Shown here: positions 23,226-54,710 of the stretch, piece by piece | Layout: each line of letters begins with the position of its first letter | How positions within the stretch are numbered: the first letter of the stretch is position 1 | Origin: Actinopolymorpha cephalotaxi | Lineage (GTDB): Bacteria; Actinomycetota; Actinomycetes; Propionibacteriales; Actinopolymorphaceae | Direction of reading: 5' to 3' | Assembly (NCBI RefSeq): GCF_013408535.1 | Contig: NZ_JACBZA010000001.1 | Span: 2,316,850 to 2,380,849 of the forward strand | Length of the DNA: 64,000 nucleotides | The notes under the pieces: model-generated | What the model was told of the DNA's origin: nothing | Databases searched by the model: none | The model's input: the letters and a program-made list of their open reading frames with translations, nothing else | Made by a program: the position numbers and the translations under genes

Positions 23226-23691
23226 GGGCTCTCCTGACCTTCCGGCGGAGGAGGACGACCATCCTGGTTGCCGAAGGGGTGCGCCGGCAGTGACCGTCTC
23301 CTGATGATCACGCCGACGGTTCGGCGCGCGGCGAAATCTACCGGCCTGGCGGCCACCCGCATCCCCGGCTGCCGATCATGAGCCGGACCGGTCGCTCTCG
23401 CGGTCCGAACTCGCGGTCCGAACTCGCGGTCCGAACTCGCGGTCCGAACTCGCGGTCCGAACTCGCGGTCCGAACTCGTGGGGACCAGAGGTGGACGACG
23501 AGCCGCTGCCCGGGTACGACTGACGTGCGACCTGGCGAACGACCGAACGTGCGGCCGTCCGGACGCTGCGTGAGTGACGCGCGGGCGCGGCGCGCCGGGA
23601 GGCGGTGTGCGTGCGGTTGCCCGCTGCGCATGCGTACGCTGCTTCGGCGGTGAAAATGAAGATCCGCAACGAATCCGTCGGCTGAGGACTG
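23226..23691. other. 466-base divergent spacer between dctA and the kinase gene
   Basis: No gene is supported here. The spacer holds the dctA ribosome-binding region (about 23228-23245), six tandem 13-base repeats (23401-23478), and the kinase leader. Minus-strand open frames through the repeat are by-products of its 13-base periodicity and show no family resemblance. Confidence 0.7.
23401..23478. repeat. Six perfect tandem copies of a 13-bp unit
   Basis: The unit CGGTCCGAACTCG is repeated six times without a mismatch, then breaks off at TGGGGACC. A partial copy (TCTCG) precedes it. The array lies about 214-291 bases upstream of the Ser/Thr kinase start and about 175 bases upstream of dctA. 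The length is not a multiple of three, so it is not coding. It could be a protein-binding array or simply a slippage-prone minisatellite. Confidence 0.95.
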
Positions 23692-40012: not shown

Positions 40013-40086
<74 letters not shown>

Positions 40087-40147
40087 CACACGAAGTAGAC
40101 GAACGTCCGTCGCAGTTGAGAAGCCGTCACCGCGAGCAGTAGAGACC

Positions 40148-52385: not shown

Positions 52386-52398
52386 GATGTGCCGTGCG

Positions 52399-52464
52399 TA
52401 TATGGTGTCGACCATGCGTACCCATGTGTATGTGGCCGAGTCGCGCCGGATGCCCTCGCTGTAG
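52399..52464 (+). other. Possible 16-residue leader peptide preceding rpmF
   Basis: ATG 52414 opens a short frame, MRTHVYVAESRRMPSL, ending at TAG 52462-52464. A TATATG -10-like box at 52399-52404 would make it leaderless. The last codons and stop lie inside the hairpin at 52448-52475. This arrangement recalls an attenuator or a translated leader, but codon content alone does not prove expression. Confidence 0.3.
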
Positions 52465-52475
52465 AGCGAGCATCC
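52448..52475 (+). promoter_or_regulatory. Hairpin in the region upstream of rpmF
   Basis: GGATG (52448-52452) and CTCGCT (52455-52460) pair with AGCGAG (52465-52470) and CATCC (52471-52475), with a two-base bulge and a GTAG loop. It lies 150 bases before rpmF. It may be a regulatory structure. No Zur-like AT-rich palindrome was seen nearby. Confidence 0.45.
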
Positions 52476-52624
52476 AGCGCCAGGTCCACCACCGCGATCC
52501 GCCTTACCGGCAAGGCTGGACGCGATCTTCGCCGCATGCTGTTCTGTTCTGCTTCGAGACCGCGGCGACGTGTGTCCGGCATCCGGAGATGGTGGTTCGC
52601 GGACCACACATCGGGAGCGACGCA

Positions 52625-52801
52625 ATGCAGGAACCGAAGCGAAGGAAGTCACGTTCGAGAACGCGGTCTCGCCGAGCGCGGTGGAAGGCGACCGCACCCT
52701 CATTGGTCCCATGCAGCAACAAGGAATGCCGCGAACCCAGGCTCGCGCATCGGGCCTGTCCCACGTGCGGCCAGTACGGAAACAGGTCGGTCACAAACTG
52801 A
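52625..52801 (+). CDS. rpmF: 50S ribosomal protein L32 (stand-alone paralogue)
   Basis: A 58-residue L32. It begins with PKRRKSRSRTRSRRARWKAT, the basic L32 signature, and ends with a four-Cys zinc ribbon: Cys30 and Cys35 (CSNKEC) and Cys45 and Cys48 (CPTC), then GQYGNRSV. The first Cys pair is CX4C rather than the CX2C I expect in Cys4 L32. ATG 52625 follows GGGAG. Unlike the main rpmF it is not next to the DUF177/rnc genes, so it is probably the second copy many Actinobacteria carry. Zinc-retaining (C+) status follows from the four Cys. It is followed by a perfect hairpin terminator. Confidence 0.92.
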   Translation: MQEPKRRKSRSRTRSRRARWKATAPSLVPCSNKECREPRLAHRACPTCGQYGNRSVTN

Positions 52802-52816
52802 TCTGCGCCAGGAGTG

Positions 52817-52847
52817 CCCGGGCGGCGACGTATCGTCGCCGCCCGGG
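52817..52847 (+). terminator. Perfect 14-bp hairpin after rpmF
   Basis: CCCGGGCGGCGACG (52817-52830) and CGTCGCCGCCCGGG (52834-52847) pair perfectly around a TAT loop, 16 bases after the rpmF stop. There is no long U-tract, as usual in Actinobacteria. Confidence 0.8.
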
Positions 52848-52999
52848 TCGGGCAGTCCTTCAATCCCACAACCGGTGCGCTGCCTGAGACTTCGTTCCCT
52901 TTGTGTTTGAAGGAAGGCCGACGCGGCATCCACCTACCGAGCACGTGCTCAGCTCGTGCGGATATCTCCTCATGTGCCGGTTCTGCTTAGGAGGACGTC

Positions 53000-53563
53000 G
53001 TGGGTCGTTGGAAAAGGATGGGCGTACGTGCCGCTGTCGCGGCGTTGACGACTGTGGGTGGACTCCTGCTGGCGATGGCGACACCCGCGTCGGCGTCGGC
53101 ATCGGCGCAGGTCGCTGCGCAGGAATGGCGCGTCTTCTCCACCTATCACGCGTGTTCGAAGACCGACTACAGCGGCTGGCGGTTCGTCGCGGCGACGGCG
53201 ACGTGCCGGTCGGGTGAGTTCGGCGTCAAGTGGTACAACGGCCGGCCTCCGGCGGCTCGGGTGGGTGTGCAGACGTGGCGCGTCTTCTCGGTCTACCACG
53301 CGTGTGTGAAGACCGACTACAGCGCCTGGCGGTTCGTCCCGGGGTCGGCGACGTGCCGGTCGGGTGAGTTCGGCGTGAAGTGGTACAACGGCCAGGCTCC
53401 GGCGGCTCGGGTGGGCGCGCAGGAGTGGCGCGTGTTCTCCACCTATCACGCGTGTTCGAAGACCGACTACAGCGGCTGGCGGTTCGTCGCGGCGACGGCG
53501 ACGTGCCGGTCGGGTGAGTTCGGCGTCAAGTGGTACAACGGCCAGGCTCCCGCGGTGCGGTGA
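53000..53563 (+). CDS. Secreted protein of three 50-residue Cys-containing repeats (unknown family)
   Basis: A 187-residue protein. Residues 1-35 form a signal peptide (basic start, hydrophobic AAVAALTTVGGLLLAMA, then ASASA), so it should be exported by Sec. The mature part is three tandem units of exactly 50 residues beginning near residues 41, 91 and 141. Each contains EWRVFSTYHACSKTDYSGW, a second Cys in TCRSGEFGVKWYNG, and four Trp. The two Cys per unit (52/69, 102/119, 152/169) probably form a disulfide. I do not recognise the fold. GTG 53000 has AGGAGG (52989-52994) upstream and a hairpin follows. Confidence 0.85.
   Translation: MGRWKRMGVRAAVAALTTVGGLLLAMATPASASASAQVAAQEWRVFSTYHACSKTDYSGWRFVAATATCRSGEFGVKWYNGRPPAARVGVQTWRVFSVYHACVKTDYSAWRFVPGSATCRSGEFGVKWYNGQAPAARVGAQEWRVFSTYHACSKTDYSGWRFVAATATCRSGEFGVKWYNGQAPAVR
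53120..53562 (+). repeat. Three tandem 150-bp units encoding 50-aa repeats
   Basis: The unit period is exactly 150 bases, with the first Trp codons at 53126, 53276 and 53426. Units 1 and 3 differ at only about one base over their first 120 bases, while unit 2 differs at many. This suggests recent duplication or gene conversion between the outer units. Confidence 0.9.
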
Positions 53564-53597
53564 GAAGGCTCGGCACGGACTGACACGTCGTGCGGGT

Positions 53598-53628
53598 GGC
53601 CCGGGTGGAGATCGTCTCCGCCCGGGCC
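53598..53628 (+). terminator. 14-bp hairpin after the repeat-protein gene
   Basis: GGCCCGGGTGGAGA (53598-53611) pairs with TCTCCGCCCGGGCC (53615-53628) around TCG, with a single G-U pair. It lies 34 bases after the stop and before the convergent flavoprotein gene. Confidence 0.75.
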
Positions 53629-53699
53629 ATCGGCACGCGCCCTTGTGGACAACGAGACTCGCGCTCCGGACGCGGTCTTGTTCGGCGCCGTGCACGCGC

Positions 53700-54710
53700 T
53701 CAGGCGTGCACGGCGCTCCCGGTCGCGGCAAGAGCGGCATCGGTGTCGGCGACGGCGAGCTGGGCGTTCATCTGGGCGCCGGCGAGAGCGCCCGCCGCGG
53801 CGGAGGCGCCTACCTGGGCGGTCAGTTCGGTGGCGTTGCCGGCCACCCACACCCCGGGCACGTCGGTGACGCCGGCCACGCCGGAGGTGTAGCGACGTCC
53901 CATGCCGTTTGACAGGTCCTCCATCGCCAGGCCGAGGCCGTCGACGCCCGCGGTGCGGGCCAGCATGGTGGTCGCGACGGCGAGGACCCTGCGGGGGACT
54001 ACCTCGCCGTCGGTCAGTCGTACGCCGGAGATCCTCCCGTCGTCGGCGGTGACGACTTCGGCAACAGGGGTGTCGACGACGCGGACGTTCCGTGCGGCGA
54101 GCCGCGAACGGGTTCCGGCATCGAGGTCGGTGCCTCGGGTGAAGTAGACGAGGTCCTCGGTCAGCTGGCGGAACAGCAGCGCGTGGTGGAGTGAGGCGGG
54201 ACCGACGGCGAGGATGCCGATGGGTTCGTCGCGCACCTCCCAGCCGTGGCAGTACGGACAGTGCACGACGCCGTGTCCCCAGTGCTCCGCCAGACCGGGA
54301 ACGTCCGGCAACACGTCGCGCAGCCCGGTCGCCACCAGCAGCCTGCGCGCGGTCAGGGTTCGGCCACTGGCCAGAGCGACTGTGAAGCGGAGATCGCCGC
54401 CGGCGGACGGTTCGGCGCGCAGGGCGGACGTCACCTCGTCGGACACGACCAGGCCGCCGTAGCGGCGGACCTCGTCACGTCCCCGTTGGTACAACTCGGC
54501 GGGCGGGGTGCCGTCCAGCCCGAGGAGCCCGTGCACGCCCTCCGCGGGTGCGTTGCGGGGAGTGCCGCTGTCGATCACGACCACCGAACGGCGGGAGCGG
54601 GCGAGCATCAGCGCACCGTTCAGGCCCGCCGCACCGCCGCCGATCACCACGGCGTCGACGGTCCCGACCGGCAGCGTGTCGCTCGCGGGAGGGTCGGCCT
54701 GCACTGGCAT
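53700..54710 (-). CDS. Thioredoxin reductase-like FAD/NAD(P) oxidoreductase
   Basis: A 336-residue TrxR-like flavoprotein. The FAD motif is AVVIGGGAAGLNGALMLARSRR (about residues 20-41). The redox pair is Cys-Pro-Tyr-Cys in HGVVHCPYCHGWEVRD, matching the CxxC-containing low-molecular-weight TrxR group. The NAD(P) region GILAVGPASLHHALLFRQL lacks the canonical GxGxxA, so cofactor use may differ. GVWVAGNATELTAQVGASAAAGALAG is the C-terminal FAD-binding motif. No thioredoxin gene is adjacent. The PVPR-type start at ATG 54710 is reasonable. Role in thiol reduction is an inference. Confidence 0.85.
   Translation of the reverse strand: MPVQADPPASDTLPVGTVDAVVIGGGAAGLNGALMLARSRRSVVVIDSGTPRNAPAEGVHGLLGLDGTPPAELYQRGRDEVRRYGGLVVSDEVTSALRAEPSAGGDLRFTVALASGRTLTARRLLVATGLRDVLPDVPGLAEHWGHGVVHCPYCHGWEVRDEPIGILAVGPASLHHALLFRQLTEDLVYFTRGTDLDAGTRSRLAARNVRVVDTPVAEVVTADDGRISGVRLTDGEVVPRRVLAVATTMLARTAGVDGLGLAMEDLSNGMGRRYTSGVAGVTDVPGVWVAGNATELTAQVGASAAAGALAGAQMNAQLAVADTDAALAATGSAVHA

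Follow-up and report, generated by a model that had tools for sequence, protein, structure and literature searches.

A predicted exported protein of Actinopolymorpha cephalotaxi with three tandem copies of a putative two-cysteine cap domain

The gene and its three repeat units

The window (the whole stretch of 64,000 nucleotides of Actinopolymorpha cephalotaxi DNA that was analysed) contains a gene whose 187-residue product is composed of a leader and, head to tail, of three units of 50, 50 and 49 residues (Table 1). The N-terminus of the open reading frame (ORF) displays basic residues, a hydrophobic core whose mean hydropathy reaches 2.03 over a 15-residue span, and Ala-Ser-Ala among repeated Ala-x-Ala motifs; export of the protein is predicted on this basis. 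An earlier sequence-only reading of this DNA had described a secreted protein with disulfide-type repeats: the signal-peptide-like leader and the paired cysteines are there to be seen, whereas export and disulfide formation are predictions made from them.

Table 1 Features of the gene and its immediate flanks (window coordinates)
Feature	Position	Strand	Basis
Ribosome-binding-site-like AGGAGG, five bases 5' of GTG	52989..52994	+	Direct sequence reading
Whole gene, 187 amino acids and stop	53000..53563	+	ORF with GTG start
Signal-peptide-like N-terminus, residues 1-36 (predicted)	53000..53107	+	Hydropathy and Ala-x-Ala motif
Unit 1, putative two-Cys cap domain copy	53114..53263	+	Repeat; 24.9 bits with a profile free of window sequence
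Unit 2, putative two-Cys cap domain copy	53264..53413	+	Repeat; 30.3 bits with a profile free of window sequence
Unit 3, putative two-Cys cap domain copy, 49 residues followed by stop	53414..53560	+	Repeat; 24.9 bits with the same non-window profile
Inverted repeat, 23-nt arms, 87% complementary, 3-nt loop	53589..53637		Sequence

The 150-bp array formed by the units (period 150, 2.9 copies, 88% matches) has a score of 731, the highest among the 20 rows that Tandem Repeats Finder returned for the window. Cysteines occupy positions 14 and 31 of every unit and are thus 17 residues apart, exactly as first read, and tryptophans occupy positions 5, 22 and 40, which makes three per unit rather than the four originally counted. 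The description of three exact 50-residue units holds for their number but not for their exactness: units 2 and 3 are 78% and 92% identical to unit 1, respectively, and the last unit is one residue shorter. Elsewhere in the window lie a perfect 13-bp tandem repeat (23397-23478; 6.3 copies, 100%) and a single tRNA-Pro gene with the anticodon ggg (40013-40087).

The inverted repeat downstream of the gene begins 26 bases after the stop codon ends; it is possibly a terminator lacking a T-run, and it was not called in a terminator scan. GC-rich inverted repeats flank the gene on both sides, at 52817-52847 and 53589-53637, and a hairpin like the former is conserved at the corresponding site of the relative L078 (approximately 2297-2329), where it is followed by a different ORF. 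A comparison with Rfam at gathering score yielded no RNA element in 52386-53700.

On the upstream side lie genes for an oxidoreductase of the FAD_binding_3 family and for a TetR regulator; downstream, a convergent gene for a Pyr_redox_2 oxidoreductase is accompanied by genes for an acetyltransferase (GNAT), for a YCII protein and for a sigma factor. Three relatives conserve the Pyr_redox_2 gene (85-89%). The place beside it is taken by other ORFs in L078 and L076, and neither blastn nor a motif search revealed any remnant of the window gene in L078, L076 or L077. It seems to be an accessory, stand-alone gene.

A two-cysteine cap domain in Actinomycetota

Many actinobacterial collagen-like proteins start with a two-Cys stretch similar to the units. 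A search of 57 genomes of the neighbourhood (including the window's own) gave matches in six at E <= 0.01, the own genome among them, and a reading of the other five left L003, from the same genus, as the sole true relative. L003 comprises one unit and, behind it, Gly-X-Y repeats that Pfam recognises as Collagen (E 3.6e-11); its domain, when compared with 198 genomes of the phylum, had no match at E <= 0.001 other than the window gene (units 1 and 3). An alignment of the three window units with L003 (A1) matched, at E <= 0.01, at least 19 of the 391 genomes searched in the order, one of which is the window's own. The seed of the family search was a consensus typed by hand, which matched 29 of 148 genomes of the class at E <= 0.01; the profiles themselves were built from real loci. 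For the wider genome searches, an alignment of 24 rows that include two window units (A2) was used. It matched at least 46 of 394 genomes sampled within the class and at least 18 of 296 of the phylum (both at E <= 1e-5 and both including the window's own), as well as 24 of 151 genomes in one family of small-genome actinomycetes and 39 of 179 in another class of the phylum (both at E <= 1e-3); the genomes of the last of these searches largely overlapped with those of a further one. In the window's own genome, one further convincing member, L022/L040, was found among the candidates scored. No match to the whole protein was confirmed in a collection of contigs, where A1 returned one locus, L069. 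The origin of the gene in a mobile element was considered and rejected, as tblastn at E <= 1 gave no match among 50,697 records of phages and 72,556 of plasmids, and no match was confirmed in viral contigs. Another locus of the own genome, L002 (841-2085; G000:C1:5572649), encodes a leader and W/GG repeats of approximately 45 residues with a propeller-like look; its match to the window query is at chance level (E 0.07).

The domain that emerges from these comparisons spans approximately 42 residues, with one copy in each window unit, and the window units very probably belong to this family. With the profile of 30 non-window domains from which the unit scores in Table 1 were obtained, the window protein reached 73.1 bits in total, compared with 19.2 bits for the best of 5000 repeat-preserving shuffles and 9.8 bits for the next best among 844 window ORFs. 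Both cysteines are invariant in the 101 non-window domains of the family, in which an arginine (84/101), a glutamate (81/101) and a tryptophan (91/101) are also conserved; all five of these residues are intact in each of the three window units. The conserved tryptophan is that at position 40, which may be structural, and conservation in the family does not extend to the tryptophans at positions 5 and 22.

The initial impression that the protein belongs to no named family was borne out by Pfam, NCBIfam and PDB searches, none of which gave a meaningful family match. Pfam returned five weak rows for the 187-residue protein, all below the cut-off (E 0.066 or worse) and taken as chance, and NCBIfam returned no match above its cut-off. 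For the 24 rows of A2 there was likewise no meaningful match in Pfam or NCBIfam (best E 0.18 and 0.066, respectively), and the family profile found nothing better than E 1.1 in the PDB. Rows from PHROGs (best E 0.0068 for the protein and 0.0097 among the 24 domain sequences) were also taken as chance. Among the matches listed in searches of the open-access PMC literature, no description of the two-Cys cap domain was found.

The architectures in which the domain occurs were compared in 114 distinct ORFs drawn from 162 loci, the window included; this table contains matches with fetched loci, mostly the best-scoring ones, and is not a random sample. All 114 ORFs pass a test for a hydrophobic leader, which is a loose stretch test without a control. 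A search of these homologues for other repeat numbers returned single copies in 112. Gly-X-Y repeats follow the cap in 99 of the 112 single-copy ORFs, within 40 residues in 95 of them and further on in 4. Of the 13 that have no Gly-X-Y, L154, L160 and L162 among them, ten were inspected: four appear truncated or frameshifted (L034, L064, L083 and L144), two are HtrA-like (L127 and L128) and four are other proteins (L118, L129, L140 and L142). By motif, HtrA-like proteases account for 17 of the 112 (L026, L110-L116 and L120-L128), a label that relies on two hand-typed motifs and that Pfam confirmed, as Trypsin_2, for 2 of the 17 (L120 and L128). A short Gly-X-Y stretch lies behind the cap in 15 of the 17 HtrA-like ORFs. 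In L023, L028 and L138, a W-S...Y..G stretch is found between the cap and the Gly-X-Y region.

Only two of the 114 ORFs carry three copies, the window protein and L108, and neither has Gly-X-Y after its copies; in the window protein, no run of three or more such triplets follows the last unit, and Pfam Collagen gives no match. L108 (1274-6601; G895:C59) encodes a surface-type protein of 1776 residues with a hydrophobic leader, copies that start at residues 56, 102 and 155 and, behind these, the Pfam domains He_PIG, TIG and Lcl_C. Its middle copy is weak, with scores that range between searches from 14.5 to 20.4 bits (E 0.0065 to 8.9e-5). The host is a 1.9-Mb genome of the same class as the window's, and no further array within one protein was seen among the matches listed for the 151 genomes of its family. 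On two other contigs, G323:C19 and G267:C20, three adjacent ORFs with one cap each lie approximately 1.0-1.2 kb apart; these are tandem gene families and not tandem domains.

Within the genus, the tandem gene was found in one of six genomes (the window's), which, together with the differing spot in the three relatives, suggests that it may be dispensable. Counting the stop codon of unit 3, the units differ per 150 nucleotides at 18 (unit 1 versus 2), 12 (1 versus 3) and 22 positions (2 versus 3), and the corresponding numbers of silent and replacement codon differences are 3 and 11, 3 and 5, and 6 and 10. Replacements outnumber silent differences, so that the comparison offers no argument for strong constraint. 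This excess, the accessory position and the presence in a single genome of the genus would be in line with a decaying or neutral offshoot of a collagen-like gene, which would have lost its collagen part while slippage multiplied its cap without any selected function. However, such an origin is improbable in view of an open frame that retains its ribosome-binding site, its leader and, in all three units, both cysteines and the family's R, E and W; furthermore, units 1 and 3 have cores of the same protein sequence, encoded by silently different DNA.

Models of the unit and of the full protein

Modelled with the 24-row alignment, a single unit is a three-stranded beta sheet (mean pLDDT 80.4, and 88-91 over residues 11-40). 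The full-protein model also contains three strands in each unit, and additional strands at residues 132-138 and 141-144 around the second linker, but has low confidence overall (mean pLDDT 58.4, pTM 0.30), with pLDDT values of 38-41 for the stretches between units. The homologues in its alignment covered unit 1 only, and the model is hence uninformative on how the units pack against each other. Fold searches in the PDB, with the unit and with the full model, and a search of viral models gave nothing at E <= 0.001. The leading rows for the unit were small chains of entries for NRPS adenylation domains and MbtH-like proteins (E 1.9 or worse), the best MbtH-like protein having a Z score of 2.2 and an r.m.s.d. 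of 2.8 with 40 residues aligned. Rows for IL-1beta, FGF21 and a chain of an IL-33 complex, which we take to be possible trefoils, were obtained with the low-confidence full model at E 0.58 or worse and TM scores of at most 0.29.

The sequence-only reading had proposed a propeller-like or trefoil-like lectin. A closed three-repeat propeller or beta-trefoil would account for the three-fold repetition and for a phmmer match of the whole protein to designed Kelch (SAKe) propellers in the PDB (E 6.5e-10). With unit 2 alone, however, no PDB sequence matches at E <= 10, and the Kelch match is read as a weak resemblance amplified by the repeats of query and target alike; as Pfam lists no Kelch family either, a Kelch propeller was rejected. 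A unit that occurs singly in 112 of the 114 ORFs need not close a ring with neighbouring units, and it is modelled on its own with fair confidence. No fold match reached significance. Closure of this kind is thus very improbable.

The lectin part of the proposal can be considered separately, as aromatic-rich repeats in which each unit binds a glycan of the cell wall or of the environment. The three tryptophans, the tyrosine and the histidine of each unit are compatible with such binding, as is the W-S...Y..G stretch behind the cap in L023, L028 and L138, which by eye we presume to resemble CBM5/12. At E <= 0.001, however, Pfam has no match to L023, and its sole match to L138 is Collagen; moreover, two of the three tryptophans, those at positions 5 and 22, are not kept in the family, with a possibly structural role for the third. 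No lectin family was listed for the window protein by Pfam or NCBIfam, the ricin-B-type trefoil lectin family being absent from their rows up to E 10, and no fold match was significant. Overall, glycan binding of this kind is doubtful.

Possible roles and likeness to known systems

Judged by comparison of sequences, the window protein is a collagen-free triplicate of a widespread cap domain for which no curated name was found. The reading preferred is that of a collagen-free, stand-alone three-copy cap protein that would be multivalent outside the cell; its chances are about even, and what it says of function goes beyond the architecture and is our inference. The gene product would be exported, with the leader preceding three small tandem domains, each a three-stranded beta domain clamped by a predicted disulfide between Cys14 and Cys31. 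The cap would have been triplicated in this protein, and the collagen-like part either lost or never present. The mature protein may then resemble three beads on flexible linkers outside the cell, all of which would offer the same binding face; three copies could confer avidity, most likely for a component of the cell envelope or of a neighbouring surface.

A different account, which is unlikely, starts from the number three itself. Collagen-like proteins trimerise, and the cap might function in threes, brought together in trans by a collagen triple helix or in cis by a single chain. The copy number is exactly three in both multi-copy proteins, and neither has Gly-X-Y behind its copies, whereas 99 of the 112 single-copy ORFs do; at the single-copy rate of 13 in 112, both arrays would be free of Gly-X-Y with a chance of approximately 0.013, on an assumption of independence that related loci do not satisfy. 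A precedent exists in the streptococcal collagen-like protein Scl, whose N-terminal V domain can nucleate trimerisation of the collagen part (PMC8968730). However, only two arrays are known from the searches made here, several of the 13 single-copy ORFs that lack Gly-X-Y look untruncated (L127, L128, L129, L140 and L142), and packing of the units finds no support in the full-length model, whose confidence is low. The HtrA-like carriers, moreover, are no proof of trimers, as HtrA of S. pneumoniae and its homologues in other Gram-positive bacteria are reported to be monomeric (PMC12745498). It is quite unlikely, on the present evidence, that the window protein represents a natural, fibre-free single-chain head of an actinobacterial collagen-like fibre, and that the cap is a three-part extracellular device found throughout the phylum. 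If the cis arrangement were true, the protein would be a single-chain version of the head of such a fibre.

As a stand-alone three-copy cap protein, which is the reading preferred here, the gene product has a wider significance as well. What had looked like an orphan repeat protein is now tied to a domain widespread in Actinomycetota, as illustrated by the class-wide search with A2, and a small protein with three copies would be a practical object for studying the fold, the binding and the trimerisation of the cap at the front ends of collagen-like and HtrA-like proteins.

Among known systems, the closest are the collagen-like proteins L003/L047 and L066 (G003, Actinopolymorpha pittospori), which, like the window protein, have the cap behind a leader. 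No other non-window row of A2 comes closer than L003, which is 38% or 43% identical to unit 1 according to the alignment used and shares with the window units Y-S-G and the pattern C...R.V...C...E...KW. By contrast with the three copies of the window protein and its lack of Gly-X-Y, these relatives have one copy that runs into Gly-X-Y, recognised by Pfam in L003 and by direct reading in L066. The same holds for the member in the window's own genome (L022/L040; G000:C1:3502102-3502233), where a single two-Cys domain behind a leader is followed by Gly-Pro-Gln repeats. In the HtrA-like proteases (for example, L120 and L128), the cap is also placed directly behind the leader, but one cap is followed by a protease domain (Trypsin_2 in L120 and L128, and recognised by motif in the other 15). 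L108 matches the window protein in having a leader, three copies and no collagen after them, and differs from it in continuing into He_PIG, TIG and Lcl_C, whereas the window protein stops after unit 3. The V domain of Scl, as described in PMC8968730, is a non-collagenous N-terminal domain that precedes Gly-X-Y, and its likeness to the cap is one of position only.
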